A DNA stretch of 64,000 nt from Spiribacter roseus (GTDB lineage: Bacteria > Pseudomonadota > Gammaproteobacteria > Nitrococcales > Nitrococcaceae). The first letter of the stretch is position 1. The number at the start of each line of letters is the position of its first letter. Of this stretch, positions 5,137-29,441 are shown piece by piece. The stretch lies in assembly GCF_002813635.1 (NCBI RefSeq), contig NZ_CP016382.1, positions 682,001 to 746,000 of the forward strand, read 5' to 3'. The notes under the pieces are model-generated. The model was not told where the DNA came from. It did not search any database and was given only the letters and a program-made list of their open reading frames with translations. Position numbers and translations under genes: made by a program.

Positions 5137-6207
5137 TCAAACCGTTTCAGGCCAACATGGCAATCGTAAGTCCCGGGGTTCCCTCTCCGCGTCGACATGG
5201 AGGGCGCCGACGGTACGCCAGTCTCGAGTTTCCCGGCTCCAGCGGCGCGGGTTCCGGGCCTTCGCCTCGGCGTAGGCCTGCTGGCGTCGGGCAAGGATAG
5301 CCGCATCCTCGCCGTTGTGCCGCTCCACTGGCGTGATGTACTGAATGCCGCTGTGCCGGTGCTCGTGGTTGTACCATTGCACGAAGCGCTGGACCCATTC
5401 CCGGGGGGCTTCCAGGCTTCCGAAGCCGTTGGCCGGATAGGCTGGCATCGCCTTGCAGGTGGCAAAGATAGACTCCGAGAACGGGTTGTCGTTGGACACC
5501 CGTGGCCGGCTATACGACGGCTCGATATTCAAGGCCGTCAGTCGGGCTCTCAGGGTCGCCCCCTTGAACGGGCTGCCGTTGTCGGAGTGCAGCACCAGCG
5601 GCTGGTTGAAGCACTGCTCCTTGAGCAGCGCCTGCTCCAGGACCTGGGCGGCCAGTGCCGATGACTCCCGGGCTTCGACCTCCCAGCCCACTACCTTGCG
5701 GCTGTAGAGATCGATGATGAGGGTCAGGTAGAAGAACAACCCGACCACGGGACCCGGCAGCCATGTGGTGTCCCACGACCAGACCTGATTCGGGCCATCG
5801 GCCCGGTGGCTGGTCGGTGGCGGCGGTGTCGCGACCTTGCGCCCACGGCCCCGAGGCTGCGCCTGCTTGTGTCTGCCCAGTACTCGGTACAGGGTCGACT
5901 CGGACGCCCAGTAGCGGCCGGTATCGGCCTCCTGCGCCACAATTTGGGCCGGCGGCAGGTTCTGATACGCAGGCCGGTTGCACAGGTCGATAACGGCCTG
6001 CTCTTCCGCCTCGCTCAGGGCGTGGGCCGGCTTCGGGCGCACCGCTGTGCGCCGCCCGTCGCACGGCACCTCGCCTTCACACTGCCAGCGCTGGTAGGTG
6101 CGGGGACTGATGCCCAGCATCTCGCAGGCTGCCTTCAACCGCGCGCCATTGGCGCGAGCATCGTCGATCAGCTCGATGGCTTTGCGGCGATCCGGGGTGC
6201 TGATCAT
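5137..6207 (-). CDS. IS3-family transposase orfB (DDE integrase)
   Basis: A 356-residue protein with an N-terminal helix-turn-helix (ISPRTYQRWQCEG) and a retroviral-type integrase core. The three acidic residues are visible in WSWDTTW, LHSDNGSP and NPFSESIF. The C-terminus has the usual QWYNHEHRHSGI motif (IQYITP). The open frame is uninterrupted. It starts with ATG just after the orfA relic ends. Transposition also needs the orfA product, which is broken here, so this copy is probably not autonomous. Confidence 0.88.
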   Translation of the reverse strand: MISTPDRRKAIELIDDARANGARLKAACEMLGISPRTYQRWQCEGEVPCDGRRTAVRPKPAHALSEAEEQAVIDLCNRPAYQNLPPAQIVAQEADTGRYWASESTLYRVLGRHKQAQPRGRGRKVATPPPPTSHRADGPNQVWSWDTTWLPGPVVGLFFYLTLIIDLYSRKVVGWEVEARESSALAAQVLEQALLKEQCFNQPLVLHSDNGSPFKGATLRARLTALNIEPSYSRPRVSNDNPFSESIFATCKAMPAYPANGFGSLEAPREWVQRFVQWYNHEHRHSGIQYITPVERHNGEDAAILARRQQAYAEAKARNPRRWSRETRDWRTVGALHVDAEREPRDLRLPCWPETV

Positions 6208-8547: not shown

Positions 8548-8951
8548 CGTTAGAGGGATTGGTCAGAGCGCTGATATTAGCCGCAGCAGCGGCATTTATG
8601 GTGGGTTGCGCTGCTACACAACCCACAATCACCGAATCCCCGCTTCAGAACGTGAACCGAATCGACCTAGAATATCCGATCAACAACCGAGTTGAGGATG
8701 TGAGCCTCAGTGTTCTGAGAGATAAGCCGCTGCCAACGGTCATCGTTGAGGGCAAGGGTGTTCGGTCACGCACGGCCATCGAATGGTCGGCCCAGTGGTA
8801 TCACAGCGACGGGCGGAAAATCGCAGGGCCTAGTACTCGGTTCAGGAGAGTAACAATCAACCCAGGCGTAGCGTTCTCGCTACAAGCAACGGCACCGATT
8901 GACGAGGCTGACGTAGTCCATGTACGGATGCGACAGTCGGACAATATGTGA
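8544..8951 (+). CDS. YcfL-like (DUF1425) lipoprotein
   Basis: A 135-residue lipoprotein with signal LAAAAAFMVGC and lipobox cysteine at about residue 22. The remainder is one beta-sandwich domain of the DUF1425/YcfL type (TAIEWSAQWYHSDGRKI, then a threonine/proline-rich strand). The ATG overlaps the stop of the preceding gene (ATGA), so translation is coupled. In enterobacteria ycfL lies directly upstream of lpoB, and the same order holds here, supporting both identifications. Its molecular role is not known. Confidence 0.78.
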   Translation: MTLEGLVRALILAAAAAFMVGCAATQPTITESPLQNVNRIDLEYPINNRVEDVSLSVLRDKPLPTVIVEGKGVRSRTAIEWSAQWYHSDGRKIAGPSTRFRRVTINPGVAFSLQATAPIDEADVVHVRMRQSDNM

Positions 8952-8961
8952 GGCGCAGAGC

Positions 8962-9594
8962 ATGCATCCTAAGGAATTCTACAAGTTGACATCGAACTTA
9001 ATTGTCGTGGCTGTGGCATCGCTTTTTCTAGCAGGCTGCGTGGCTACAGGAACGAAATATGTGGACACGGCGGACGATCGTGGCGAAGCGGTTATGGCGC
9101 TGGACTACAGAGATTTTCAGCAAGCCGCTGGCGAGATGGTTGAGAGTATGCTTACGTCTGGCGCGGTTGTAGATCCTGACGGCGGGCGTCGCGTGTTGAT
9201 GGTCGGTCGTATCACGAACGACACCATGCAGCGAATTGATACGGACCAACTCCTGCGCCCTATCCGTGCTGATCTGCGCCGGTCAGGCAGAGTGGTGATG
9301 ACGAGTGCCGTTGGTCTCCAAGGTCCAGAAGATGAAAGTAGTATGGCCGTTCGCGAGCTGCGAGACAGTGAGGAGTTCGATCAGCGGACAGTCGCGGGTG
9401 AGGGGCAATTGATTGCACCTGACTCGTCGCTATCCGGATCCATCCTTCAGCGAGTGATAACGATGGACGACGGGAGCGACCAGGTTGAATACTATTTCGA
9501 ACTTGCATTGACGGATATCAAAACCGGCTTAGTTCTGTGGGAAGATCAGCGGCTCGTCGTCAAGCGCGGATCCGGTGACACGGTCTCGTGGTAA
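8962..9594 (+). CDS. lpoB: LpoB-like activator of penicillin-binding protein 1B
   Basis: A 210-residue outer-membrane lipoprotein: signal LIVVAVASLFLAGC, then a CsgG-related alpha-beta domain (RVLMVGRITNDTMQRIDTD, LSGSILQRVI, YYFELALTDIKTGLVLWED). Those motifs are typical of LpoB, which reaches through the periplasm to stimulate PBP1B. The usual proline-rich linker after the lipidated cysteine is short here. I prefer ATG 8,962 because upstream codons in frame do not form a signal peptide. It sits 10 bp after the YcfL-like gene. Since it is in an island, it could be a second copy beside a chromosomal lpoB. Confidence 0.75.
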   Translation: MHPKEFYKLTSNLIVVAVASLFLAGCVATGTKYVDTADDRGEAVMALDYRDFQQAAGEMVESMLTSGAVVDPDGGRRVLMVGRITNDTMQRIDTDQLLRPIRADLRRSGRVVMTSAVGLQGPEDESSMAVRELRDSEEFDQRTVAGEGQLIAPDSSLSGSILQRVITMDDGSDQVEYYFELALTDIKTGLVLWEDQRLVVKRGSGDTVSW

Positions 9595-9616
9595 CCGCAC
9601 AGCAAGGGATTATTCA

Positions 9617-11026
9617 ATGCATTACCTTAATTTAACGGCCTCAGCGCTTGTCTTAATTAGCACCTTGATTGTGGGAATGGCGGGAGCACAGACCGGTGTC
9701 GAAGCTGATTCGGTGGACATATCCGAAACGGAGGTTGGTGGCACCGGGGGCGAGACAGACGAAGTGGCTGCAGCTACTTCTAAACCGGAAAACATTTTCC
9801 CATCCGCCAACGATATCGCCGGCTCAGGCATCCTCCAGGATCGAGATGAGTATCTCTCAGAGAGAGGTTGGTCGCTAGGGATTTATGACAAGAATCCGGG
9901 CGGTAGCTATATTGGATGGGGAACGGCTAATATCGTTACGAGTCCGGAGAGCATAGATTACGGAGGCGCGCGTATCGCTGCGGTGGACGCTGCGATAGCT
10001 GAAGCGATGGGCGATTTTGCGATTTCGAGGGGACTTGACGGAGGCGCAGAGACCATACGCACGGTTTCGCAGGACCCGAATGCGTTACAACGTGCGGAGC
10101 GCGAATCGAACGAGAATTACGCTCAGGCGGTCATTGACCGAGTTGCGAATTTGACAACTGCGCAATTGGACAAGGCTTTAGAGGATCTCGGCGTAGATCC
10201 GGCCCGTCATGCGGATCTCGACTACTCTGAAACGGTTAAGTTAGCGCAAGATCGCGTTCAGCGGGAGATAGTGGGGACGGCATTGGAAAGCTTCCGCGGC
10301 GTGCGGCTTCTCAAGACATTCGAGGAGGAGGACGCTGTCGGCGCGCTTGTCATACACAACGATGGTATGGCGGAAATCGCGAGACGAATCGCGGAGGGAG
10401 ACATCGTTGCGATTGGCGATGGCGTGTCATCCGATGCAGTTGAAAAGATCACCTCCGATCTCACGGCAGAGGAGTTGATTTTTATGCATGGTGTACGTCT
10501 GCTGCGTGACTCGCAGGGCAACCCGGTCATCGTGTCATTTGGACAATCATCCCCGTCGGTCACCCGCGCGGATACCGATCGAGCAATAAATCTGGCAGTG
10601 ACGGCATCAGACAAATCGGCTGTGTTGCGCGCGAACGGAGCAATATCCGACTTTCTTGGCGCGTCCGTAAGGGTTGACGATCAGCTTGACGCCGATGCCG
10701 ATGCGTTCCGCGACGGGACGATAGAAGAGGATGGCACCCTAACTAAAACAGATGGCGCGCGCTTCGTCGAAAATCTCGAGAGCTTCATCAGCCAATCGAG
10801 CGAGATCAATCTCTCCGGGATAACGACCGTTCGATCGTGGCGAGCGAACCACCCTGATACAGGGCATTTGTATGTCGGAGCAGTGAGGATGTGGTCCCCT
10901 GGAACCGAGGCTGCTTTCACCGACAAAGGCCGCGTCCCAACAGAGGAAAGCGCAACGGTGTCGGGGGACCGATCTGTAGAGGTGGAGCGTCGAGAGTCCC
11001 CGGCGTTCGGAACTGAAGACTGGTAG
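9617..11026 (+). CDS. Secreted protein of unknown function in the lpoB-csgG-like operon
   Basis: A 469-residue protein with a cleavable Sec signal (ALVLISTLIVGMAGAQ, cleavage after AGA-Q). The ATG at 9,617 follows AAGGGA. The mature part is acidic and mixed alpha-beta. An early segment (GGARIAAVDAAIAEAMGDFA) resembles the LPP20/FlgT-like helix that collects alanines, and the C-terminal part contains TVRSWRANHPDTGHLYVGAV, as in proteins that pair with CsgG-domain partners. No known enzyme motif is seen. Location between LpoB-like and CsgG-like genes suggests a periplasmic partner of an outer-membrane complex. Confidence 0.65.
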   Translation: MHYLNLTASALVLISTLIVGMAGAQTGVEADSVDISETEVGGTGGETDEVAAATSKPENIFPSANDIAGSGILQDRDEYLSERGWSLGIYDKNPGGSYIGWGTANIVTSPESIDYGGARIAAVDAAIAEAMGDFAISRGLDGGAETIRTVSQDPNALQRAERESNENYAQAVIDRVANLTTAQLDKALEDLGVDPARHADLDYSETVKLAQDRVQREIVGTALESFRGVRLLKTFEEEDAVGALVIHNDGMAEIARRIAEGDIVAIGDGVSSDAVEKITSDLTAEELIFMHGVRLLRDSQGNPVIVSFGQSSPSVTRADTDRAINLAVTASDKSAVLRANGAISDFLGASVRVDDQLDADADAFRDGTIEEDGTLTKTDGARFVENLESFISQSSEINLSGITTVRSWRANHPDTGHLYVGAVRMWSPGTEAAFTDKGRVPTEESATVSGDRSVEVERRESPAFGTEDW

Positions 11027-11031
11027 GTGTG

Positions 11032-12336
11032 ATGTTGCCGAAGGTTTCGATTCAAAGCTTGTTACTGGGCGGTCTGCTCTATTTGCCGACATTAGCGATA
11101 GGCTCTAGTGAGATAGTTTCGGTAGAGGCTATGGGAAGGGGCGCGAACCGCGCGGAAGCAATCAATGCAGCGCTCGTAGAGGCTGTGTCGCGCGTGGAAG
11201 GGATCAACGTCATATCGGAGCGCAAACGCAGCAGTAGCTCTCGCGAGGTAGTGGTTCGCGATGCAAACGGGAGTGAGCGGAAGATTGCGTTTGACCGCAC
11301 TATGAGTGGTTCAGTGAGGACCGCCACTGACGGTCTCGTTGAAAGCTTTCGTATCCTCCAGAACCGTACGCTTGACGGGATGAGTGAAGTCCAGCTCGAA
11401 GTTGACATTGCCAGCTTTGAAGCGCCGGGCAGCGCCACGCATACCACGCGACGAAGGATTGCTGTCTACCCCGTCAGCGCATCCGGGAGTTACACCGTCT
11501 TGGGCAAGAAATTGCCGGCTTCGGTGGTTAGCTCACGTCTCACTCAACGGTTAGTGGAGGCATTCACTGGCACAAGACGCTTCGCCGTTTTGGAACGAAG
11601 TCGCTCGGAGGCGTTAGATACGGAGTTGGAGTTTTTAACCAAGCCTGTGGTGGCGCGGCGCGAGGCAGCACGCATTGGCGAAGCAATAGGGGCGGATTAC
11701 TTAGTTACAGCGCAAGTGACCGATCTAGAAGTGATGCAAAGCCGTCGCACCTTACAGCTTACTTCGGAAGTGGTGCGCGAAATTACTGCGTCGCTCGCCG
11801 TTAACATGCGAATCGTTTCAACCGCGACGCGCCAAATCATGTGGGCAGACACCGTTGCAGTCAATGCGCAGGAGTTGAAAGATTTGGGAGTGGAGGTCGA
11901 ACAGCGGAACCAATCGCTAACGGCGACGCTCCAATTCGTTGCTGCTGAGTTGACCAGTCGTGCGGTAGACGCGATTTATCCCATTCGAATCGCCTCAGTT
12001 ACGGAGGCGGGCGAGATCGTCCTGAATCAGGGAGATAACCGCTTATCACCTGGCGATCGGCTTGATGTCTTTAAGCTCGGCGAGCATGTCACGGATCCGT
12101 ACACGGGCGAGAGTTTAGGTCGAGAGGAGCTGCCGGTTGGTGCTGTAAAGGTTGATCGTGTTACCAGCAAGGTTGCCTACGCTTCACCGGTCGATGCAGA
12201 AAAATGGCCTGGCGAGGGAAGTATATCCGGCGGTTATGTTGTCCGAGGGCAAACTGTGAATCGCGCTTCCGTAGAAATTTCGGAGCTCGTCGGAAATGCG
12301 GCGGATCCAGTCCTCCTGCCGCAAGATGGTCACTAG
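11032..12336 (+). CDS. CsgG/FlgT-like periplasmic or outer-membrane protein
   Basis: A 434-residue protein with a signal (LLLGGLLYLPTLAIGSS). Residues about 25-130 form an LPP20/FlgT-N-like domain (GRGANRAEAINAALVEAVSR). Residues about 140-320 are a CsgG-type domain (RIAVYPVSAS, RLVEAFTGTRRFAVLERSRS, IGADYLVTAQVTDLEV). The C-terminal 100 residues resemble a FlgT-C-like beta domain (GDNRLSPGDRLDVFKLGE). This architecture matches FlgT, the flagellar H-ring protein, but no flagellar genes are near, so a distinct envelope function with the preceding four genes is more likely. A GTG directly precedes the chosen ATG. Confidence 0.72.
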   Translation: MLPKVSIQSLLLGGLLYLPTLAIGSSEIVSVEAMGRGANRAEAINAALVEAVSRVEGINVISERKRSSSSREVVVRDANGSERKIAFDRTMSGSVRTATDGLVESFRILQNRTLDGMSEVQLEVDIASFEAPGSATHTTRRRIAVYPVSASGSYTVLGKKLPASVVSSRLTQRLVEAFTGTRRFAVLERSRSEALDTELEFLTKPVVARREAARIGEAIGADYLVTAQVTDLEVMQSRRTLQLTSEVVREITASLAVNMRIVSTATRQIMWADTVAVNAQELKDLGVEVEQRNQSLTATLQFVAAELTSRAVDAIYPIRIASVTEAGEIVLNQGDNRLSPGDRLDVFKLGEHVTDPYTGESLGREELPVGAVKVDRVTSKVAYASPVDAEKWPGEGSISGGYVVRGQTVNRASVEISELVGNAADPVLLPQDGH

Positions 12337-14643: not shown

Positions 14644-17600
14644 GTGGAACACTCCCAGCGATGCATCAGAGTCTTTCTGTCTTCGACCTTCCGGGACTTT
14701 TCCGAAGAGAGAGACTTGCTTGTACGCCAGGTCTTCCCAGCGCTCCGGGCGAAGCTGGCCGAGCGCTTTGTTGATTTGGTTGATGTTGATCTGCGCTGGG
14801 GTATTACTGAGGAAGAGGCGGAGCGTGGCGAGGTTTTACCAATCTGTCTATCCGAGATAGATCGCTCTCGGCCGTTCTTCATTGGACTTCTAGGCGAGCG
14901 GTACGGGTGGATTCCTCCATCGAACGCCTATCCTGCCGAAGTGCTCGAGACACAGCCGTGGCTTGAGGAGCATCGGGGCGGTAAGAGCGTTACTGAGTTG
15001 GAGATCCTACACGGCGTGCTCAACAACCCCGATATGGCAGGCCGCGCGCTGTTCTACTTCCGCAGCCCTGCATACGCACAATCGCGAGGCGAGGGCCACT
15101 TACCCGTATCGGCAGAGAACGAGGCGAAACAACAAGCGCTGAAAGCCCGCATTCGGGAGAGCGACTTCCCAGTTGTCGAGGACTATGAGACCCCGCAGGC
15201 GGTCGCCGATCAGATACAGCATGATCTCTGGGAAGCGCTCGATGCAGAATTCCCCGCCGCTGACATACCTGATGCCTTCACTCGAGACCTGCTTCAGCAC
15301 GAAGCCTATGCGGCACCGCGCCGGCGCATCTACCTCGGTGGCGAGCGGTATCTTGATAGCTTAAACCAAGCGCTCAAAGGTGCTACGCAGTGGATCTTGA
15401 TAGAAGGTGAGTCTGGCAGCGGGAAAAGCGCCCTGCTCGCTAACTGGATCGATCAACTCAGCAGCGCCAGTAATGATCTCATCATCCACACCCACTTCCT
15501 TGGGGCAAATCCAAGTGCTGCTGATCCGGTGGCGCTTGTACGCCGGCTCATCGAACGGATCCGGCGAGAGACCGACACCGATGAGGAACCGGCGTCTGAT
15601 CCAGACACACTACTCGATGCGCTACCGGAGTGGCTCGCCAGAGCAAGTGCCTGGGCCGAGCTTAACAACAAGCGCTTTCTAATCGTACTGGACTCGCTGA
15701 ATGGGTTGGCGGACCGACGTGAGCTTCGATGGTTCCCCAGCATGATGCCGCTGCGCGTCCACTGCGTTGTCTCCACACTACCCGGTGAGGTGCGTGAGCG
15801 CCTCGATGACAAAGCACAGTGGCACCGGATCCAAGTTGAACGACTAGACCGCAAAACCACCCGTCAGGTCTTTGTCGCCTACCTGAGCCTATTTAACAAA
15901 ACGCTGCCCAAACCACTCATCGATCAGGTGATGGAACATCCTCTGGTCACGAACCCGCTTTTCCTGCTCACGCTCGCCGAAGAGCTCCGGCTGTTCGGAG
16001 AACATGAACGGCTCAGCGAGCAACTTTGCTATTATCAAGAGAGCAAGACCGTTGATGATCTGTTCGAGCGGGTCCTGGCCCGGGTCGAGGCTGACCACGG
16101 AGCCGCTGTCATCCGGCACATCATGACCGCCTTGTGGGCGGCCCGCGGGGGCATGCGAGAAGAAGAGCTACTCGCCTACACCGGCCTCGCTCCAATGAAG
16201 TGGGCCTACATCCGGCATGCCTTAGGTCCAGCGCTCATAGAAACAACCGGCCGCTACGTCTTCGCTCATGACTATCTGCGCATTGCCGTCTCGGATCGCT
16301 ACATGGCCGGCAACAATCATCTCGAAGATGAAGGTCAGAGCGAGCAAGCATTAAAATTACGAAAACAGGCACATATCTGGCTAGGCGAGTGGTTCGAGGC
16401 GAATGCCTTCCAGAATGACCAAGGGGCTGTCACCGACGCCCGCGCCGCTGAGGAGATCCCTTATCAGTGGCAGCAGGCGAAGCAGTGGGAGCGCCTTGCA
16501 GATGCCCTCGCTACTCTTGACCTTTTTATGGCCCATACCGAGCACAGGGAGGGTTATGAGTTACTCAGCTACTGGCTCGCTATCGAAGCGAATACTAGAG
16601 AAACGCTTGAGGTGACTTATGAGCATGCCTGGAAAAAATGGAACCTTGATGAAAGTACAGAGGAAGCTGGCGATGTTGCTACACGGCTAAGACGTTGCCT
16701 TAGTGTGGGTGGCCGCTACACAGAGTTTGCGACAACCATGGCTAGACTAGCACTAAGCCTTGTTACCTCACGTTATGGAGAGCAAAGCCTTGAGACAGTC
16801 TCTTGTTTGAACAATTTGGCCACGCTATTACAAGAGCGCGGTGATCTCAACTCTGCAGAGTCGACGCAACGACGCGTAATTGCTTTACTTGAAAATAGGC
16901 GTCACTCCAATCCCCTCGCCTATCTTATGTCACTGAATAATCTTGGCTCGTTGCTCTGGCGTAAGGGCGAATTTCACGAGGCTGAACGACTTTACCGAGA
17001 AGCACTTGAGCTAGCCGTAGAGAACCAAGCAAGACACCTTTACTCCAAAGCGACAACACTCAATAATTTGGCTGCTCTTTTGAGAGACCGAGGAGAGCTC
17101 ACTGACGCTCATAGACTGGCGTCAGAAGCCTTGGCGATTAGCGAGCACTGCTATGGAGAGCATCATCCCAAAACTGGAACTAATCTCAATAACCTTGGCG
17201 TTCTCCTGAAAGACCTCGGCAACTACGAAGCGGCTGAACGCTGTTATAGAAAAGCGCTTAGTGTCCGTACAAAAACTCTGGGTCCAGCTCACCCCGAAAC
17301 AAGCACAAGCCTCAACAATCTTGCTGAATTCCTGCAAGACCGTGGCAACCTAAAGGATGCCGAAACCCTTTACAGAAGAGCAATTACGATCCGAGAAAAC
17401 ACTTTCGGTCCCGAGCACTTCCAAACCGCAATGATCTTGAGCAACTTAGCTTCGTTACTTCGTGACACCGGTGATTTGGAGTCGGCGGAGCGCTTGATAA
17501 AGAAAACCATTCACATTTACAAGACCAACTTTGGAAATAATCATCATCAAACCGGGCTGAGCTTAAATAGCTTGGCAGTTGTTCTTCAAGAGCTTAAAAA

Positions 17601-18093
17601 ATACGAAGAAGCTTCTCGCATCTATCAACGAACCATCGCCGTTTACAAAAAAACTCTAGGCAAATCGCATGCCCACACTGCTGCAACTCATCAAAATCAC
17701 GGAGTTTGTCTACGGACTATGGGAAATTATGAGAAGGCACTGAAAGAACTAGAAAAAGCATTGAACATTAACGAACAAAATTTTGGACCCGAGAGCGAAC
17801 AAGCTGCCTCAACGCTTAGCGCTATCGCCAAGCTATATGAATTGACTGCCTCTTACCCTAAAGCTCGCGACACCTATAACAACGCTCTCACAATTCGAAA
17901 GAAGATCCACGGTACTGAGCACCCTAAAACGACACTAATCTACTCCCGCCTAGGCGACCTCAACCTTGCAACAGGCCAGACCGTAGCGGCTAAAGTTAAT
18001 TTTCAAAAAGCTCTCAGAGGCTACCAGCGAACCTTTGGACCTAGTCACCCTACAACCTTAGAGGTGATACAAAAACTCAACGGCCTTAATTAA
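14644..18093 (+). CDS. DUF4062 - STAND NTPase - TPR protein (NPHP3/TEP1-like architecture)
   Basis: A 1,149-residue protein. Residues 8-95 are a DUF4062 domain (IRVFLSSTFRDFSEERDLL, DLRWGIT, FFIGLLGERYGW), which also heads eukaryotic nephrocystin-3 and TEP1. Residues about 225-520 are a STAND P-loop NTPase, with Walker A GESGSGKS at 255-262 and Walker B FLIVLDSL near 346-352. The region to about 700 is a helical arm. Residues about 720-1149 are ten 42-residue kinesin-light-chain-type TPRs (LNNLAxLLxxxGxxxxAExxY..). The GTG start follows AGAGGG. STAND proteins of this type act as switches that oligomerise on sensing a ligand, and many bacterial ones are antiviral; DUF4062 would be the effector or adaptor. 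Function here is inferred. The TPR half is visibly more AT-rich than the first two thirds, suggesting recombination within the gene. Confidence 0.85.
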   Translation: MEHSQRCIRVFLSSTFRDFSEERDLLVRQVFPALRAKLAERFVDLVDVDLRWGITEEEAERGEVLPICLSEIDRSRPFFIGLLGERYGWIPPSNAYPAEVLETQPWLEEHRGGKSVTELEILHGVLNNPDMAGRALFYFRSPAYAQSRGEGHLPVSAENEAKQQALKARIRESDFPVVEDYETPQAVADQIQHDLWEALDAEFPAADIPDAFTRDLLQHEAYAAPRRRIYLGGERYLDSLNQALKGATQWILIEGESGSGKSALLANWIDQLSSASNDLIIHTHFLGANPSAADPVALVRRLIERIRRETDTDEEPASDPDTLLDALPEWLARASAWAELNNKRFLIVLDSLNGLADRRELRWFPSMMPLRVHCVVSTLPGEVRERLDDKAQWHRIQVERLDRKTTRQVFVAYLSLFNKTLPKPLIDQVMEHPLVTNPLFLLTLAEELRLFGEHERLSEQLCYYQESKTVDDLFERVLARVEADHGAAVIRHIMTALWAARGGMREEELLAYTGLAPMKWAYIRHALGPALIETTGRYVFAHDYLRIAVSDRYMAGNNHLEDEGQSEQALKLRKQAHIWLGEWFEANAFQNDQGAVTDARAAEEIPYQWQQAKQWERLADALATLDLFMAHTEHREGYELLSYWLAIEANTRETLEVTYEHAWKKWNLDESTEEAGDVATRLRRCLSVGGRYTEFATTMARLALSLVTSRYGEQSLETVSCLNNLATLLQERGDLNSAESTQRRVIALLENRRHSNPLAYLMSLNNLGSLLWRKGEFHEAERLYREALELAVENQARHLYSKATTLNNLAALLRDRGELTDAHRLASEALAISEHCYGEHHPKTGTNLNNLGVLLKDLGNYEAAERCYRKALSVRTKTLGPAHPETSTSLNNLAEFLQDRGNLKDAETLYRRAITIRENTFGPEHFQTAMILSNLASLLRDTGDLESAERLIKKTIHIYKTNFGNNHHQTGLSLNSLAVVLQELKKYEEASRIYQRTIAVYKKTLGKSHAHTAATHQNHGVCLRTMGNYEKALKELEKALNINEQNFGPESEQAASTLSAIAKLYELTASYPKARDTYNNALTIRKKIHGTEHPKTTLIYSRLGDLNLATGQTVAAKVNFQKALRGYQRTFGPSHPTTLEVIQKLNGLN

Positions 18094-18166: not shown

Positions 18167-19769
18167 GGGGGTGCGGCGGAAATCTTGGACTACTTTGGAG
18201 GTAGTTCATGTATTCCTATAAAGACCGGATGAGGGCTGTCGAGCTCTATATTCAATATGGGAGGAGAGGGGCAGCAACCGTGCGGGATCTCGGTTATCCC
18301 TCTGTCAAGCATCTCCGGCGTTGGTACCGGCACTATATGAAAAACGGTGATCTACCCCCTGACAGATCTCTGCCGGGCAATAGCTACTCACCTGAAAAGC
18401 GTCGGGCGGCAGTCGATCATTACCTGCAGACTGGTCGATGTGTTGCGCACACCATCCGCGCGCTCGGTTATCCAGACGGCGGCACGCTGCGGATTTGGCT
18501 GAATGAAGACCTTGGTCCAACGCCCCAGAGCCAGGGTCGAGGCGCACCGAAATGCCATATCGACGACAAGCGGCAGGCTGTTTATGAGCTCTGCACCCGG
18601 CAGACCTCCGCGACAGCCGTAGCGCGAAGATACGGCGTCACCGACTCAGCCCTGTATAACTGGCGTGACCAATTGCTCGGTAAAGAAGCGAAGAGGTCAT
18701 CGGTGAAGCGACAGGACGACAACGCCAACGATGGCGACCCCGAAGCGCTCCGCGCGGAGGTCAAGGCCCTGGAGAAACGGGTGCACGAGCTACAGCTTGA
18801 GCACGACATCCTGGTCAAGGCGAGTGAAATCGTAAAAAAAGAAGGCGGCGTCAACCCGCAGACCCTGAGCAATCGGGAGAAGACCCTGCTGGTTGACGCC
18901 TTGAAGGGTGCCTACCGTCTCTCTGAACTATTGAAGGCCGTCCAACTGCCGCGGAGCTCGTACTACTACCAGCGCGAGGCCCTGCAGCGTCCGGATAAGT
19001 ACGCAGAGGCCCGCCAGGCGATCGCGACAATCTTCGAGAACAACTACCGTTGCTACGGCTATCGGCGGATCGGTGAAAGCCTTCGTCGCGATGGTGCAGC
19101 GCTCTCTGAGAAGGTGGTGCGCCGTCTTATGAGCGAAGAGGGCCTCGTCGTCGGCAGCACGCAACGGCGACGGTTCTCCAGCTATCGTGGGGAGCTCAAT
19201 CCGGCTCCGGAGAACATCATCGCCCGTGATTTCCAGGCATCGGCTCCCAATGAGAAATGGTTGACCGATATCACCGAGTTCCCGGTGCTGGATGGCAAGG
19301 TCTATCTCTCTCCCATGACCGATTGCTTCGACGGCCTCGCGGTCAGTTGGTCGATCAGCGGCTCACCCAACGCTGAGCTGGTCAATGCCATGCTGGACGA
19401 GGCGATCAGCACGCTTGCTCCTGGCGAAAGGCCGGTCGTTCACTCCGACCGAGGCTGCCATTACCGGTGGCCCGGCTGGCTGAAACGCCTCGAAGCGGCT
19501 GGTCTGACACGATCAATGTCCCGCAAGGGGTGCACGCCGGATAATGCCGCCTGCGAGGCGTTCTTCGGCCGGCTGAAGGTCGAGTTCTTCTACGCACGCC
19601 AATGGACTGGCACTACGATGGAGCACTTCATCGCCGAACTCGATGCCTATATCCGCTGGTACAACGAATCACGAATCAAGATGTCGCTGGGCGGAAAAAG
19701 CCCCATCGAGTATCGTCAGGAGCTCGGCATTGCCGCGTGAAAACTGTCCAAGAAAAGCGCCGCACCCCC
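18167..19769 (+). mobile_element. IS3-family element, apparently intact
   Basis: About 1.6 kb bounded by terminal inverted repeats of about 24 bp: GGGGGTGCGGCGGAAATCTT at the left and the complement GGGGGTGCGGCGCTTTTCTT at the right, both continuing GGAC. It contains one long transposase frame. No exact target-site duplication is visible by eye. It lies directly between the STAND gene and the RyR-domain gene. A relic of the right end of the same type of element is at 4,495-4,585. Confidence 0.85.
18208..19740 (+). CDS. IS3-family transposase, single fused frame
   Basis: A 510-residue transposase. Residues 1-110 hold two similar helix-turn-helix units (RMRAVELYIQYGRRGAATVR and KRRAAVDHYLQTGRCVAHTI). 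A third helix-turn-helix with a leucine-zipper-like coil follows (residues 120-215). The DDE core has catalytic residues in WLTDITEF, VVHSDRGCHY and DNAACEAFFGRLK. orfA and orfB are joined in one frame, so no ribosomal frameshift is needed. The start ATG follows GGAGGT. All expected motifs are present, so it may still be active. Confidence 0.9.
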   Translation: MYSYKDRMRAVELYIQYGRRGAATVRDLGYPSVKHLRRWYRHYMKNGDLPPDRSLPGNSYSPEKRRAAVDHYLQTGRCVAHTIRALGYPDGGTLRIWLNEDLGPTPQSQGRGAPKCHIDDKRQAVYELCTRQTSATAVARRYGVTDSALYNWRDQLLGKEAKRSSVKRQDDNANDGDPEALRAEVKALEKRVHELQLEHDILVKASEIVKKEGGVNPQTLSNREKTLLVDALKGAYRLSELLKAVQLPRSSYYYQREALQRPDKYAEARQAIATIFENNYRCYGYRRIGESLRRDGAALSEKVVRRLMSEEGLVVGSTQRRRFSSYRGELNPAPENIIARDFQASAPNEKWLTDITEFPVLDGKVYLSPMTDCFDGLAVSWSISGSPNAELVNAMLDEAISTLAPGERPVVHSDRGCHYRWPGWLKRLEAAGLTRSMSRKGCTPDNAACEAFFGRLKVEFFYARQWTGTTMEHFIAELDAYIRWYNESRIKMSLGGKSPIEYRQELGIAA

Positions 19770-20325: not shown

Positions 20326-22050
20326 CTAATTCCTTTGTTCCAGCGCTATTAGCCGATTAACTTTTTCTACATCCTTTTGTTTCTCGGAAACGCTCAGATC
20401 ACCGTAGGCCACCAAAGACGGGTGGAGCTTGTTCACATCGTCACGACACGGACCGAATCGCCACCCAGCAATAATTTTGTCCGCCATCCAGCTTCGATGC
20501 TCTGCCTCCGCCAACGCCTCAATCATCTCACATGAACTATCCCGCGCGAGCGCATCTCGTTTGATACGATCGTGGTCAATCGTACGGCGATTCGCAGCCT
20601 TATACTCTTCCTTAAGTTCCGGCCACGGTGCCGTTGCTGGTTTGCTCGGGTCGTACTGCCTGTTTTTTATGTGCATTAAGTATGACTCGTGAGCTTTTCG
20701 CGCCTCAGCATCGATCTCCTCGTCAAAGACAGAGGAGCTCGAGCATCCGATTTCTGTCACGTTAAAAAATCGCCCATACTCATAGATGGGCAGGTCGGGC
20801 CTTACAGTGGGGAAAGAGACGCTTGGCTTGATGCAAACGACGTGGTCCATCCGAGCACTATCATCTGAGGTTGCAGCGATGAGTGCCTGCTGATTCAATC
20901 GCCGTGCAAATTTGATGCTTGCGAATGGATCGTCGAGCGCGACTATCGCCAAGTCGTACAGCCTCCCAGATGTCCTATCAACTAAACCGAGCTCATCAGA
21001 AAGCAATGCCCCGCGAGATTTTTCGTGGAAGCTGACGGCACTTACTAAAGATAACTGAGGGTGAGAATGCGGGAACTCCTCTAAAAATTGGTTCAAATCT
21101 GGAGACATAAAATCTATCGTGGGCACGCCACAATGGGGGTACTGCAGTTGCTTTATAGCCATACTGATCAGAGACGCCGAGAATCGCCCTTCACCTACGA
21201 TTAGAATCTTAGGCTGTCTATGATTATCGAAGAAATTCTCAAAATTTGCCAAGCTGGCATCCATTGCGATCTGTCGGGCTGCGGTAATATCGGGGTCAAA
21301 AAACCTTGCATCTGCTACACTCGTGCTCGTGCCGAAAGGTTTGGCATCTTTGAAAAAGTCCGAGAAATCAGGCCCAGCAAGCGCCCTGATTTGCGTCTCT
21401 CGCCCAGGTTCGTTTTTTCTCCTCTGCTCTTCAATTAGCTCCACACATTTAGAAGCTACGCCATAATTCTCTCGTTCGTCGGCTGCCATCACGGCAATTT
21501 TGGATGCAGTTTGGACGCGCCCGCTCTTTAACACTATTTTATCGAGCGGAGAACCGTATATAACTTTCACTCCCGCGGCTTTCAATTCTCCGAGGTACGG
21601 ATTTTTCGTGTCATTCTCGACTACAACAACAGTGTGACCCTCCGTTAAAAGGCTACGTGCAATCGCTTTGCCCCTATCGGTCAACCCACACACAACTGCG
21701 TGCCCCTCAAGGGAGGCAACGGATAATTTACTTGCTGCATCAGTGACAGCGGCCGCTACAAGCCTGATTACGCTATATGCCACTGTTCCCGGTGCAAGGT
21801 ACCTGGCTATCTGAATAAAGGCATTCGGTGCAGATAGCACTGTTGCCCCTTCCGCCGAGACAGGGTTAGCGACGCTGAATAGTTGAAACACCCCGTAAAT
21901 TAGGTCTAGTGGCGGGGCTTCTACGCCAAGCGTGGCATAATGTAGCCGGAATCCAATATACCCAAGTATAGATGCGAGGAACGCTAGCGCACCAACTATC
22001 CACCACTCGAATCTTTTTACCCACGTCAGAAATGTCTCGATATTGCCCAA
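20326..22050 (-). CDS. Membrane protein with TrkA/RCK-like domains and C-terminal RyR domain
   Basis: A 574-residue protein. The N-terminus has a membrane helix (residues about 16-35), a short hydrophobic pore-helix-like stretch (DLIYGVFQLFSVANP) and a second helix (about 76-101). Residues 116-200 are a TrkA-N Rossmann domain (AVVCGLTDRGKAIARSLL, VVVVEND, IYGSPLDKIVL). A second Rossmann-like unit starts at KILIVGEGRF (residue 281). Residues about 470-565 match the RyR domain found in ryanodine receptors (AEHRSWMADKIIAGWRFGP, HPSLVAYGDLS). The layout suggests a ligand-gated ion channel or nucleotide sensor in the inner membrane. Proteins combining RyR and TrkA-type domains have been linked by genome-context studies to nucleotide-based conflict systems. 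The start codon is TTG, behind AGGTGAC with short spacing. Ligand and ion are unknown. Confidence 0.8.
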   Translation of the reverse strand: MGNIETFLTWVKRFEWWIVGALAFLASILGYIGFRLHYATLGVEAPPLDLIYGVFQLFSVANPVSAEGATVLSAPNAFIQIARYLAPGTVAYSVIRLVAAAVTDAASKLSVASLEGHAVVCGLTDRGKAIARSLLTEGHTVVVVENDTKNPYLGELKAAGVKVIYGSPLDKIVLKSGRVQTASKIAVMAADERENYGVASKCVELIEEQRRKNEPGRETQIRALAGPDFSDFFKDAKPFGTSTSVADARFFDPDITAARQIAMDASLANFENFFDNHRQPKILIVGEGRFSASLISMAIKQLQYPHCGVPTIDFMSPDLNQFLEEFPHSHPQLSLVSAVSFHEKSRGALLSDELGLVDRTSGRLYDLAIVALDDPFASIKFARRLNQQALIAATSDDSARMDHVVCIKPSVSFPTVRPDLPIYEYGRFFNVTEIGCSSSSVFDEEIDAEARKAHESYLMHIKNRQYDPSKPATAPWPELKEEYKAANRRTIDHDRIKRDALARDSSCEMIEALAEAEHRSWMADKIIAGWRFGPCRDDVNKLHPSLVAYGDLSVSEKQKDVEKVNRLIALEQRN

Positions 22051-22484: not shown

Positions 22485-23385
22485 TTACGCCACTATCCGG
22501 GCCTCGAATGCCTCAGGGCTAATGTATTCGAGGGCAGAATGACGACGGGTTCGGTTGTACTCCACTTCGATGTACTCGAAAAGGACCTGGCGCAGCGCAT
22601 CGGGGTGCATCAGCGGCATATCATGGATGCTCTCGACCTTTAGGCTGTGGAAGAAGCTCTCCACCACCGCATTGTCGTAGCAGGTACCTCGGCCGCTCAT
22701 GCTGGCGACCAGTCCGTAGCGACGGAGCAGGTTGCGATCATCCCAGCCACAGTAAACGCTCCCGCGATCCGTGTGCATGATCACACCGCTCGGCTCGCCA
22801 CGCCGGGCAAGCGCCGCTCGCAGGGCGGTGCAGGCGAGTAAAGCATCGATGTGCGCACTGGTCGCCCAGCCGATCACCTTGCGTGTGCACAGGTTCAGGA
22901 TCACCGCGAGGTAGAGCCAGCCCTGAAGGGTCCGCAGGTAGGTGATATCACCCGCCCACTTCTCGTCAGGCCGCTTGGCGCTGAAGTCTTGGGTAAGGAC
23001 ATTGGGCGCTACACCGAGCGAGTGACCCGAGTCGGTGGTATGCCGAAAGGGTTTGGCCGCGCAGGCCCGCAGCCCCTGCCGGCGCATACTCTCAGCCACG
23101 GTCTTACGGTTCATAGCCATGCCTTCAGCCTCCAGCTCCTCGCAAAGGCGAGGCGAGCCGTAGCGCCGCTTCTTTGCCTCAAACAGTTCGACCACTTTCG
23201 CGTCCCGCTTGGTCCGCTCAGCGACGCGTTACGAAACACTGTCCCGACGGTGCAGCCACGCGTAGTAGCCACTGCGGGAGGCGCCCAGCACCGCGCACTG
23301 GCGCGCGATGCTGTGGACCGATCGATGCTGGTGAATGGCGGCGTGCTTCAGTCCAGCTTCGTCGCGAACTACGCCGCGGTTTTTT
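22485..23385 (-). pseudogene. IS3-family orfB with an in-frame stop
   Basis: From 23,195 leftward, 236 codons are open and include the integrase core: WAGDITYL, MHTDRGSVYC and DNAVVESFFHSLK supply the DDE residues, and EYNRTRRHSALEY is the usual C-terminal motif. Upstream of that, the same frame carries the expected orfB start region (HAAIHQHRS, ARQCAVLGASRSGYYAWLHR), but a TAA at 23,229-23,231 separates the two parts. The family makes OrfAB by -1 frameshifting at the end of orfA, which would give a truncated product here. Confidence 0.78.
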
Positions 23386-23650
23386 CCAGGATCGTGACCT
23401 CTTCGGTCTTGTCGGCGAGCTGGCGCTTAAGCCGAGCATTTTCCTCGCGGAGCTGGCGCTCGCGGCCAGTGACGGACTTCTCGTGTGCTGCCTTAGCCCG
23501 CCACTGATAGATCTGCGTGGCATGCAAGCCGAGCTCACTGGCCGCGGCTGCAACACCGATGCGCTCGGCGAGCGACAGGGCTTCGGCACGATATTCCGCG
23601 CTGTAGCGAACCCTCTTTCGCTTGGGCATGTCGTTGGCTTCTGTTGCCAT
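23369..23650 (-). CDS. IS3-family transposase orfA
   Basis: A 93-residue protein with the classic orfA layout: basic N-terminus (KRKRVRYSAEYRAEAL), helix-turn-helix (GVAAAASELGLHATQIYQW) and a leucine-zipper coil (LREENARLKRQLADKTEEV) ending ILEKTAA. It is intact; the translation probably begins at the internal ATG of MPKRKR. The AAAAAAC-like run at the end of the gene fits the usual frameshift site into orfB. Confidence 0.85.
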   Translation of the reverse strand: MATEANDMPKRKRVRYSAEYRAEALSLAERIGVAAAASELGLHATQIYQWRAKAAHEKSVTGRERQLREENARLKRQLADKTEEVTILEKTAA

Positions 23651-24454: not shown

Positions 24455-25267
24455 TCATAGTGCAGTCTCGTTTTCTCCGGTTTCCTCGAGCGCAGCCTCC
24501 TTAGCGGTCTGGGATGAGCGGCTCTTAGCGAGCAGGCCGGCTTTCCGCTTCTCCTTGAGCCGGTAGCTCTCGCCTTTGATGTTCACCGTGGTGGCGTGAT
24601 GCAGCAACCGATCCAGGATGGCAGTGGCCATCACCGGATCGCCGAAGACCTCACCCCGGTCGGCGAAGCCCTTGTTCGAGGTCAGGATCAGGCTCGCCCT
24701 CTCGTATCGCCGGGCAACCAGCCGGAAGAACAGGCTCGCCTCGTCACGGCTCATGGGCAGATAGCCCAGCTCATCGAGGATGAGGACCTTCGGGTAGGTC
24801 AGTTGCTTGAGCACCCGCTCGAGCTTTTGTTCAGCGCTCGCCTTGCGCAGCTTGGTGAGGAGCTCATCGAGGGTGAGGAACACCACCCGGTGACCGGCCT
24901 GTGCCGCCTTGATGCCGAGCGCGATGGCCAGATGCGTCTTACCAACGCCGGGCGGACCCAGGAACACGGCGTTGTTCCCGCGCTCGACGAAGGCTAGCGA
25001 GGCCAGTTCCCGGATGACCTTCCGGTCGATGCTGGGCTGGAAGCTGAAGTCGAAGGCCTCCAGGGTGTGCATCGCCGGGAAGCGTGCCTGACGCAGTCGC
25101 GTCTCCACGCCCCGGACGTTCCGGGACTGCCACTCGGCCTTGAGCGCTTCGGTGAGGAACGCCCGGTAGTCGAGATCCCGCTTGGCGGCCTGTTCGCAGA
25201 TCGTATCGAGCTGCTCATCGAGCCCTTGGAGCTTCAACCGCTCCAGCAGTGTGCCGAGCTCCATCAC
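24455..25267 (-). CDS. istB: IS21 transposition helper ATPase IstB
   Basis: A 270-residue DnaC/IstB-type AAA+ protein. Walker A is GPPGVGKTHLA (residues about 105-115), Walker B is VLILDELGYLP, and SLILTSNKGF corresponds to the sensor region. The N-terminal helix (LLERLKLQGLDEQLDTICEQ) is the IstB leader. It overlaps istA by 4 bp (stop and start) and works with IstA in target capture. Confidence 0.93.
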   Translation of the reverse strand: MMELGTLLERLKLQGLDEQLDTICEQAAKRDLDYRAFLTEALKAEWQSRNVRGVETRLRQARFPAMHTLEAFDFSFQPSIDRKVIRELASLAFVERGNNAVFLGPPGVGKTHLAIALGIKAAQAGHRVVFLTLDELLTKLRKASAEQKLERVLKQLTYPKVLILDELGYLPMSRDEASLFFRLVARRYERASLILTSNKGFADRGEVFGDPVMATAILDRLLHHATTVNIKGESYRLKEKRKAGLLAKSRSSQTAKEAALEETGENETAL

Positions 25268-26436
25268 AGCACCTCCGTGTAGTAACCGAGGTCACGGGTC
25301 TGGACCCGTACCTGGTCCCAGAGGCAAGCGTGATGCTCGGCGACCGTGACGAAGCGCTCGCCGTCAGTGGCAAGCCGGTGGTGGGCGACAGGATGGCCCT
25401 CAAGATGACGGATCTCGATCTCGCCATCCAACGTCTGGCGGATGCTGACCCGCTGCTGGGCCAATTGCCCCGGCACGCTATAGCGCACGCCATGCAGAGA
25501 GACGTAGGCGTCCAGGCTCACCGCGCGGGTGTAGTGGTAGGCCGTATCGTAGCGGCTACGCGGCAGCGGCCCGAGCGACTCGCGCTCCCGTGCGAAGCGG
25601 GCCGGGACCGACTCGCCCAGCTCCCTTAGCGTGCGCTGGTTAGCCACCGTCTGGCACCAGGCGGTGAGATAGGCGTTGAGGTGATCGAAGCTGTCGAACG
25701 CCGGATCACCGGCAAGGGCGTTCTCACTGATGTAACGCACCATCCGCTCGACCTTACCCTTGGTCTTTGCCCGTCGAGGCCGGCATGCGCGGCGCGTGAA
25801 GCCGTAGTGGACGCCGAGTTCGCGGAAGCGCGGGTTGAAGCGGGGTCGGCCATCACGCCAGTCGAGCACGGCCGAGGCCTGGTTATCGACCAGTACACTG
25901 CTCGGGACACCGCCGAAGGCCTCGAGCGCAGCGATGATCACCTCGTAGGTATGGTTGGCATCCAGCGAGGGCATCCCCATGGCATGCAGATGACGGGAAT
26001 ACCCCAACACGTTCACCCCGACATAGACCTTCTGGCGCATATCGCCGATCAGCAACCGCCGCTCGCACCAGTCATGCTGCATCTGCTGACCGGGCGGCGT
26101 CTCGTAGCGGACAACGCCGGCGTCCGGACGCAGTACGCGCTTGGGCTGAATGTAGTCATGCAACTGCGTGCTGACCCCGGTATACCCAGCCTTGCGGATA
26201 TCTTGCAGGATCACCTCGGCGTTCCAGATCCCCTTACGGAGCATCCCGTCGATCTGATCGATGAACGGGTCCAACTTCCGCGGCCGTCGCTTTGGTCGCT
26301 TCGGCGGCTCACTGCCGCGCTTTAGCGCTCGACTCACGGTCTTCGGGGTAACCCCGAGCTCCGCGGCAATGTCCTTGATATATACGCCCTGTCTGTATCT
26401 CTCGGTTATCATCAAATAGTCCTCTCGGGTCATCAT
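25264..26436 (-). CDS. istA: IS21 transposase IstA
   Basis: About 390 residues. The N-terminal helix-turn-helix (GVYIKDIAAELGVTPKTVSR) is followed by the integrase core with acidic residues in MQHDWCER, VLVDNQASAV and the glutamate of KGKVERMVRYI. The C-terminal beta domain (VSLHGVRYSVP) is typical. I take the start at the MMTREDY position because the upstream codons lack family similarity. Confidence 0.92.
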   Translation of the reverse strand: MMTREDYLMITERYRQGVYIKDIAAELGVTPKTVSRALKRGSEPPKRPKRRPRKLDPFIDQIDGMLRKGIWNAEVILQDIRKAGYTGVSTQLHDYIQPKRVLRPDAGVVRYETPPGQQMQHDWCERRLLIGDMRQKVYVGVNVLGYSRHLHAMGMPSLDANHTYEVIIAALEAFGGVPSSVLVDNQASAVLDWRDGRPRFNPRFRELGVHYGFTRRACRPRRAKTKGKVERMVRYISENALAGDPAFDSFDHLNAYLTAWCQTVANQRTLRELGESVPARFARERESLGPLPRSRYDTAYHYTRAVSLDAYVSLHGVRYSVPGQLAQQRVSIRQTLDGEIEIRHLEGHPVAHHRLATDGERFVTVAEHHACLWDQVRVQTRDLGYYTEVL

Positions 26437-26498
26437 CCCCGGTCTCCAAGCGGCCAAACTTGCAAGACCGAGGATCGTTGGTCCGAGGGGACATCTCA

Positions 26499-26964
26499 AA
26501 CCGGCGATCAGAGGACTCTACTGGGCGGCGCCAACATGCCTGGTTGAATCACTGTACTTCGGTAACTCCGCGCAACGATCGGCGCAGGACTAAGAATATC
26601 CGCCGTGCCTGGCGAGGGCGCAAACGGCGGGGCGAACTTGCTGTCATGGTTGGGAATTCTACCGACGAGATCCTTTGCTAGCGATTATCAAACAGCGGTG
26701 CCACCGCAAATGCTGAGGCCTCGCTCGGCGACAGCCTTATAGACAGCCTGCGGCACATACAACTCGTGGACCGTCCGTTGATGCGGCCATCGGCCAAAGG
26801 GTGGGTAAGGTCATCAGGGCGTCACACCAGTGCCGTCAGAATGTATGCCGTGGTCAAGGGAGTCATCACGCCCTACAAGCGGTAGCAGGGTGGGCTGATG
26901 GAACGCTCTTCCCGACCTCTCTAGATAGGATGCTTCTGACAGCAGAAGCTCGACTCCCTGGCAT
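26499..26964. other. Intergenic region after the IS21 element
   Basis: About 465 bp. There is no gene-like frame with a ribosome binding site. Its GC content is higher than that of the following genes. No repeat or tRNA was identified; it may include more scrambled IS-derived DNA. Confidence 0.35.
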
Positions 26965-28295: not shown

Positions 28296-29441
28296 TCACC
28301 CATGCAGCAAATAAAAGCTGAAATATATGCCAGTTAATAGAATGACGAGCGTAAAGGCCCCTCGAAGTGCAAGTTTTTTTATGATCAGCGGCCTGCTCGC
28401 GATTGAGACCTCATTCGGCAGATATTCACTGAGCAGTACAAGTCCAATTGCCACCATGAAACTCATCCAAGTCAGGTCACCCAGTGTGAGGTAAGCGGTT
28501 TCCGGAATTAGTTCCATGAGGTAAAGTGTATAAGCGAACAGTGCTAATAAGGTGCCAATTTGTACATGTATACGGGTATCCACAAGCCGATCGCGTCCGG
28601 AAGGCAAATCCTCTGACTCTCTCAGTGTGTAGGATCCAAAAGTAACAAAGAATAGAATCAGTAGGGGCAGCAACCCTCGGGCGACTTTTGTAGCCGGTTC
28701 CCGCTTTACCGTCAGAGTAATACCCAGCTCGTCCCAATACTCTCCCGTTTCCGATACCCATTCAGTACCAACTTCAGTGAAAGACGCATTTTCCATCCTC
28801 CACCCGGGGACATGAATACCGCCTAGCGATATCTCAATTTTATCAATGGACGCTGCTTCGTGATACCATTTAGAAGGAACAAGGTCCATATATGCTGAAG
28901 AGTCCTCGCCAGCTACTATTATCGGTATTTCCAATTCGTCGAATGGAAAATAGCGAAAATTTCCTACGATGTTCGCACTGCCTTTGACTCGTGTCATGTA
29001 GGCGAAGCGGTTGTTTTGAACCATCCAATGGTGACCTTGTACTGTTTCAGGGTCATGGATAGACATCATTTCGATATCGGGGTTGTAGAACCTTTGCCAA
29101 ACGTTATCTGCAAGATGTCCAACGCATTTCACGTTGGCATGAGGTCTTGAAAGCGGATATTCAATGGTTAAGTAGAAGTCGACGACAGCAATGTTATTGC
29201 TCGGCGAAATATTGGTTACCCGTATGGGTTGTATACCGATTCCCACCTCATATCGGTTGTCGCGGGTCAACTTGGGCGTAAATACTGTATCCGAGGCCGC
29301 GCACAGGTCAGTGTCACCCCGAGCATTTTGATCGGCCGCCTCACTACCAGAAGGTACAGATATACTCAGCGCGAGAAGTATCAAAACGCCGCTGAGCGCT
29401 ATCTTTTTTAACGATAGATGCTCGCTCATCGGGTACCTCAT
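28296..29441 (-). CDS. Prokaryotic pentameric ligand-gated ion channel (Cys-loop receptor homologue)
   Basis: A 381-residue protein related to GLIC and ELIC. It has a signal peptide (residues 8-35), an extracellular beta-sandwich (about 50-248) and four membrane helices: M1 at about 253-272, M2 at about 291-309, M3 at about 322-340 and M4 at about 355-379. Diagnostic marks are the FPFDE motif at 165-169 (the Pro-loop equivalent of the Cys-loop), GLLPLLILFF in M1 and the M2-M3 loop PETAYLTLGD. The M2 segment (IHVQIGTLLALFAYTLYLME) carries a glutamate at its outer end. It would form a pentameric channel in the inner membrane gated by a periplasmic ligand or pH. The first ATG overlaps the stop of the upstream ORF (ATGA); a second ATG at 29,429 behind GAGGT is an alternative start. 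Pore selectivity and ligand cannot be read from the sequence. Confidence 0.9.
   Translation of the reverse strand: MRYPMSEHLSLKKIALSGVLILLALSISVPSGSEAADQNARGDTDLCAASDTVFTPKLTRDNRYEVGIGIQPIRVTNISPSNNIAVVDFYLTIEYPLSRPHANVKCVGHLADNVWQRFYNPDIEMMSIHDPETVQGHHWMVQNNRFAYMTRVKGSANIVGNFRYFPFDELEIPIIVAGEDSSAYMDLVPSKWYHEAASIDKIEISLGGIHVPGWRMENASFTEVGTEWVSETGEYWDELGITLTVKREPATKVARGLLPLLILFFVTFGSYTLRESEDLPSGRDRLVDTRIHVQIGTLLALFAYTLYLMELIPETAYLTLGDLTWMSFMVAIGLVLLSEYLPNEVSIASRPLIIKKLALRGAFTLVILLTGIYFSFYLLHG

Follow-up and report, generated by a model that had tools for sequence, protein, structure and literature searches.

A ryanodine-receptor-domain membrane protein with tandem RCK units as a putative receiver in a Thoeris-like NAD-signalling system

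TIR and TIR-like enzymes produce ADP-ribose-type products. A long-standing question is whether ryanodine receptors are direct targets of cADPR. Recent work provides two points of comparison in prokaryotes and their phages. First, the phage RyR enzyme RyDEP cleaves 2'/3'cADPR, with H75 and D117 as the catalytic pair; these residues contact 3'cADPR/ADPR together with W78, which stacks on the adenine, and H100, which holds the phosphates (PMC13232231). Other phage homologues with an RyR domain bind without cleaving, and most of those with high conservation show no cleavage (PMC13232231). Second, DUF4062 was described in the Swarozyc system as a TIR-like NADase that yields ADP-ribose and is active in phage defence (PMC13174449). 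No open-access paper that connects RyR domains with either TrkA or DUF4062 was found in the present study; an earlier mention is possible, and priority is uncertain. Herein, we describe a bacterial locus in which an RyR domain is carried by a membrane protein and a DUF4062 protein is encoded nearby.

The window, i.e. the whole stretch of 64,000 nucleotides of Spiribacter roseus DNA that was analysed, contains on its minus strand an uninterrupted reading frame of 574 aa (20326-22050), which was assigned to an RyR-RCK membrane protein based on the open frame, the Pfam matches to RyR and TrkA_N, and an AlphaFold model. The start codon is TTG (22048-22050), and the stop codon lies at 20326-20328. 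The TTG start and the full length are plausible because the length agrees with that of homologues of 553 and 570 aa; the start codon is uncertain, since the upstream AGGTGA is just 3 nt from the TTG. In the Pfam analysis, the RyR domain (PF02026) was detected at residues 506-568 with 50.1 bits against a cut-off of 27.4 (E 3e-13; 20347-20535), and TrkA_N (PF02254) at residues 119-204 with 38.7 bits against a cut-off of 23.8. The segment EHRSWMADKIIAGWRFGP corresponds to residues 517-534, and HPSLVAYGDLS to residues 543-553. The RyR domain matched RyR1-3, 3NRT and 35TM in the PDB, and by sequence a profile of the family matched RyR1-3, the Bacteroides thetaiotaomicron crystal structure 3NRT, TrkA and GsuK.

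The AlphaFold model, built with 18 natural homologues, reached a pLDDT of 80.6 and a pTM of 0.76. Hydropathy maxima were observed at residues 16-36 and 84-103, in agreement with a first modelled membrane helix at residues 15-40 (21931-22008, minus strand as for all features of this gene; hydropathy 1.9 over residues 18-36) and a second one at residues 77-112 that extends into the cytosol (21715-21822). Between them, a short helix (residues 47-57; 21880-21912) takes a pore-helix-like position, and no TVGYG filter follows it. The membrane part is followed by two modelled Rossmann units, namely RCK1/TrkA-N at residues ~118-275 (21226-21699), which retains the glycine-rich Rossmann motif and is matched structurally by MthK, GsuK and TrkA, and an RCK2-like unit at residues ~281-435 (20746-21210). 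A conserved helical linker (residues 444-503; 20542-20721) leads to the RyR helices at residues 507-573. The top structural matches of the model were the CASTOR/DMI1 gating rings (Z 19), KtrA, GsuK, TrkA, MthK and Slo1; the alignments with CASTOR/DMI1, KtrA and GsuK cover both Rossmann units, and the match to GsuK (Z 18, 350 residues, rmsd 11) comprises the membrane part and both RCKs. A TVGYG filter between the membrane helices was found in none of 28 rows scanned, the sole match being in a Rossmann loop of one relative (L030). Moreover, the linker between the membrane helices is very short in three relatives (L041, L042 and L047); a pore loop is therefore not a feature of all RyR-RCK proteins. 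With the filter missing and too little space for a pore loop in some relatives, the membrane part may form an unselective leak, or it may function as something other than a classical channel; the name "channel" is thus less safe than "membrane effector or sensor". The earlier note had placed a gene at 20326-22050 without stating its strand; the gene is intact and lies on the minus strand, and the plus-strand frame is closed by many stops. Its description of membrane helices, two Rossmann-like units and a C-terminal RyR domain in one chain is borne out by Pfam, hydropathy and the model, the two motifs that it quoted are both present, and the lack of membrane insertion that it held would refute its reading is not what is predicted, given the two membrane helices. 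Its proposal of a channel or sensor holds for a membrane effector or sensor; a canonical potassium filter is absent, and ion conduction has not been demonstrated.

The pocket residues of RyDEP have counterparts in the RyR-RCK protein at H518, W521, H543 and D560, with spacings of 3, 25 and 42 that are identical to those of RyDEP, and the match to PDB chain 35TM shows no length difference. In an alignment of 18 homologues (A3), H518, W521 and H543 show no variation, D560 is retained in 17, and a few rows of a ten-row alignment (A1) deviate at the pocket residues. A second conserved block, comprising H454, Y457, W476, N487, R488, H493 and K497, is located just before the RyR domain in the helical linker, where invariant or near-invariant columns occur in both alignments; judging from these columns, the block marks an extended module. 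The preserved pocket could also be explained by a function as an off-switch, in which the RyR domain would hold or hydrolyse the TIR/DUF4062 product close to the membrane, in the manner of a ring nuclease or of the RyDEP glycosidase from phage, with the RCK/membrane part serving as an anchor or as a sensor of NAD(H)/ADP. The RyDEP dyad H75 and D117 is kept as H518 and D560, consistent with this explanation, and the glycine-rich motif of RCK1 also fits, GsuK structures having been solved with NAD and ADP bound. However, phage homologues of the same Pfam family bind without cleaving (PMC13232231), so the residues are no proof of catalysis, and a large gated membrane body would be needless for such a role. 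We regard the off-switch as unlikely.

The putative partner of the RyR-RCK protein in the window is a STAND protein of 1149 aa with a DUF4062-NACHT-TPR architecture, encoded on the plus strand at 14644-18093 and identified through Pfam, the genome scan and the fold of residues 5-205. The DUF4062 domain matched PF13271 with 51 bits, and the model of residues 5-205 (pLDDT 81) matched TIR and deoxyribosyltransferase-type folds with Z ~10. By profile and modelled fold, without activity data, the partner carries a TIR-like NADase domain. Glu120 in the SVTELE motif (15001-15003, plus strand) is kept in most DUF4062 partners and in the model sits in the helix after the third strand, where the catalytic Glu of TIR domains is expected; its assignment as the catalytic residue of the TIR-like domain is an inference. 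The two genes are separated by an IS3-family element with transposase domains and 24-nt terminal inverted repeats (18167-19769, plus strand), in agreement with the STAND NTPase that the earlier note had placed one IS element away. Because the genes converge with this element between them, they do not form an operon. In the anti-phage profiles of PADLOC 2.0.0, the RyR-RCK protein matched no model, and for the partner the general TPR model alone was strong, the others being weak.

The scan of the window's genome revealed one RyR gene and one DUF4062 gene, 2.2 kb apart, and no TIR_2 gene. Close homologues of either the RyR-RCK or the partner gene were absent from the 13 other genomes of the genus; the matches observed there, to KefB/TrkA-like or NACHT/TPR proteins, were all weak. 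The GC content of the window is 48-62% up to ~36 kb and 62-70% beyond, and positions 1-36000 are rich in IS elements, with elements at 5137-6207, 18208-19740 and 22485-23650 and an IS21 istA/istB pair at 24455-26499. The location of the RyR/DUF4062 block in this lower-GC, IS-rich stretch is consistent with horizontal arrival. Two other parts of the window are recorded here as separate observations. A row of LpoB, DUF6844 and CsgG-domain genes upstream of the island (8920-12336, plus strand) is a cluster of the outer-membrane-lipoprotein type. A 381-aa protein (28296-29441, minus strand) gave a weak LGIC_1 match (E 1e-4), far under the cut-off, and is at most a possible, predicted relative of bacterial pentameric ligand-gated channels.

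The neighbourhood of the RyR-RCK gene was compared across 22 genomes that carry the membrane form; their selection was based on the RyR sequence and took no account of neighbouring genes. In 14 of the 22, TIR or DUF4062 was encoded within 5 kb of the RyR-RCK gene, against 0.29 expected from the number of TIR/DUF4062 genes per genome. The corresponding Poisson-binomial tail is about 2e-22, a value that is overstated, though not enough to matter, because a few of the 22 genomes are related. The neighbour types distinguished by Pfam were TIR, TIR-nSTAND1-WD40, DUF4062-nSTAND1, DUF4062-TPR, and DUF4062-NACHT-TPR or -WD40. Operon-type pairs, defined as genes on the same strand with a gap of at most 200 bp, include combinations of TIR and RyR-RCK genes in a Methanomicrobiales archaeon (L047; 7 bp), Akkermansia (L039; 87 bp), a member of the Desulfobacteraceae (L041; 161 bp), a further genome (L042; 164 bp) and a gammaproteobacterial MAG (L046; 197 bp). 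Pairs with DUF4062 were observed on an Arcobacter plasmid (L018; 48 bp) and in Ca. Marithrix (L065), where 138 bp separate the DUF4062-NACHT-TPR gene from the RyR-RCK gene downstream of it; the Ca. Marithrix partner has the domain order of the window's partner and is 32% identical to it over nearly the whole length. In Erythrobacter (L050), DUF4062, TIR, one more gene and RyR-RCK follow in succession on one strand. The association of RyR domains with nucleotide signalling, which had been put forward in the earlier note, is strengthened by these recurring neighbours and by the adenine/ribose pocket residues, in the absence of binding data. As a separate observation, a 1146-aa RyR protein in which no RCK or membrane part was detected is encoded 13 bp before a DUF4062-NACHT-TPR gene (L097:2657-9166); the RyR/DUF4062 pairing thus occurs also without a membrane part.

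Nearness to TIR or DUF4062 genes might nevertheless reflect nothing more than the clustering of defence genes, the RyR-RCK protein acting on its own, or in concert with different partners, within nucleotide-centred defence islands. In eight of the 22 genomes (three with short or edge-cut contigs), neither a TIR nor a DUF4062 gene occurs within 5 kb, patatin, caspase and SLOG/SLATT-type proteins are neighbours in some genomes, and the pair in the window is not an operon; all of these points are compatible with such clustering. However, type I methylases (PF02384), which are common defence genes and are encoded in 16 of the 22 genomes, were never located within 5 kb of the RyR-RCK gene, and this control weakens the notion of generic clustering. 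The same-strand pairs 7-200 bp apart also recur across phyla and in archaea, and mere clustering appears distinctly unlikely to us. A function as an ordinary RCK-regulated subunit of a potassium channel or transporter with an accessory domain, serving housekeeping potassium balance, is very improbable and was rejected: the fold does resemble GsuK, MthK, KtrA and TrkA, but the TVGYG filter is absent from the 28 rows, TrkH is not nearby, close homologues are lacking in the 13 genomes of the same genus, and any RyR domain occurs in just ~1-2% of genomes of the class and phylum. In the TrkH control, eight of 19 genomes carried this gene, in every case away from the RyR gene. In the window's genome it is located at 1.35 and 1.82 Mb, with the window at 0.68-0.75 Mb; homologues beside potassium-uptake genes, which according to the earlier note would have spoken against its proposal, were thus not the pattern observed.

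The distribution of the family was broad and sparse. Single-sequence scans of genome and viral collections returned no relative of the RyR-RCK protein; the ten-row alignment was too diverse for a pattern search, and a three-row alignment of the C-terminal part served. Among 84,980 species genomes scanned, 59 RyR loci were detected in Pseudomonadota, Thermodesulfobacteriota, Verrucomicrobiota, Actinomycetota, Bacillota, Bacteroidota, Acidobacteriota, Planctomycetota and archaea, among others, and many of them encode the same membrane-RCK-RCK-RyR chain. An RyR domain was carried by four of 369 genomes of the class and eight of 398 genomes of a phylum sample, the window's genome being included in each. 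IMG/VR gave one match, and the matches in phages, chiefly Salmonella phages, were only of the size of an RyR domain. In a tree of 23 RyR-RCK proteins, the partners are scattered, with at least five changes between TIR, DUF4062 and both; because the branches are long, partner exchange is supported just loosely. Several relatives differ in gene organisation. In Bacteroidales (L071, L075, L084 and L086), TIR genes occur together with a small RyR-only gene and a gene for a membrane RCK-RyR protein. The RyR-only protein encoded in L085 gave a match to the orphan crystal structure 3NRT (E 5e-35), which, on similarity of sequence alone, suggests where such orphan RyR proteins may belong. In a genome from the window's own taxonomic family (L013:9627-13472), a standalone RyR gene of 101 aa directly precedes a membrane RCK-RyR gene of 1118 aa, and two TIR genes lie downstream. 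An 840-aa protein (L027:7541-10063) combines, by eye, RelA/SpoT-like, TPR, LOG-like and RyR units, with profile support for RyR alone, and some RyR-RCK relatives end in a region that by eye is SLOG-like.

We propose that, in a Thoeris-like system of NAD signalling, the RyR-RCK protein is the effector or receiver at the membrane, a reading that we consider rather probable, with the messenger, its binding, the gating and the role in phage defence all inferred. First, the DUF4062-NACHT-TPR protein would sense an intruder through its TPR/NACHT part and oligomerise. Second, its TIR-like DUF4062 domain would cleave NAD to an ADP-ribose-type product, either linear or cyclic. Third, the C-terminal RyR domain would bind this product in the H518/W521/H543/D560 pocket. 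The binding would then shift the tandem-RCK gating ring and alter the membrane part with its two helices; the most likely outcome would be a leak that halts the infected cell. Slow hydrolysis of the signal in the RyR pocket may, in addition, serve as a timer. The computation supports the domain architecture, the pocket residues, the TIR-like fold of the partner and the recurring neighbourhood, and every functional step is inferred. Several observations count against the Thoeris-like model, including the eight genomes without a near TIR or DUF4062 gene, the lack of an operon in the window, and the missing potassium filter. In addition, Swarozyc, the known DUF4062 system, depletes NAD and has no effector that responds to a signal (PMC13174449). 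The wider idea of a class of prokaryotic immune systems, in which an RCK-type membrane channel is opened through its RyR domain by an ADP-ribose-type messenger from a TIR NADase or from a DUF4062 NADase under STAND control, is offered only tentatively, as a possibility that we doubt more than we trust. Such a class would parallel, in bacteria and archaea, the action of cADPR on ryanodine receptors as well as TIR/NLR immunity with a membrane channel as its end point.

The locus presents the pocket of animal ryanodine receptors on a small prokaryotic membrane protein, beside presumed ligand-making enzymes, and the link between a TIR-type NAD product, an RyR domain and a gated membrane protein might be tested here in a simple system. 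If the Thoeris-like model is true, TIR-based immunity would gain a new receiver domain and membrane effector, and orphan bacterial RyR proteins would gain a function. It would also join two separate findings of May 2026, namely that RyR binds 2'/3'cADPR and that DUF4062 is a TIR-like NADase.

The locus shares parts with several known systems and differs from each of them. Like the tandem-RCK channels GsuK, MthK, Slo (BK) and CASTOR/DMI1, the RyR-RCK protein is predicted to have two membrane helices followed by RCK Rossmann units; unlike them, it has no potassium filter, adds a C-terminal RyR domain with a conserved helical linker, and has TIR/DUF4062 genes as neighbours. Animal ryanodine receptors have a homologous RyR (R12) domain, and a gated membrane build is common to both, whereas their SPRY and other domains, six-helix pore and the remainder of the chain are unrelated to the RyR-RCK protein. 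RyDEP has an RyR domain with an identically spaced set of these four ligand/catalytic residues (PMC13232231, PDB 35TM). As a small, soluble protein of phage origin, it degrades or sequesters the signals of the host, whereas the RyR domain in the window belongs to a host membrane protein beside a presumed signal maker. The partner gene resembles Swarozyc in its DUF4062 TIR-like domain (PMC13174449). Swarozyc is a single NAD-depleting protein with a C-terminal portal-binding auxiliary domain, whereas the C-terminal part of the window's partner consists of NACHT and TPR according to Pfam, and a membrane RyR-RCK gene recurs beside the DUF4062 partner proteins. In Thoeris (TIR ThsB plus ThsA), as here, the gene of a TIR or TIR-like NADase adjoins that of an effector with a domain for an ADP-ribose-type signal. 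In contrast to Thoeris, the proposed receiver domain is RyR and not SLOG or macro, and the proposed effector is a tandem-RCK membrane protein in which Pfam detected none of the ThsA effector domains (SIR2-SLOG, macro); DUF4062 takes the place of TIR in the window and several relatives, and TIR itself stands beside many others. By its named parts, this system is not Thoeris; by inference, it works like Thoeris with a new receiver and a new effector.
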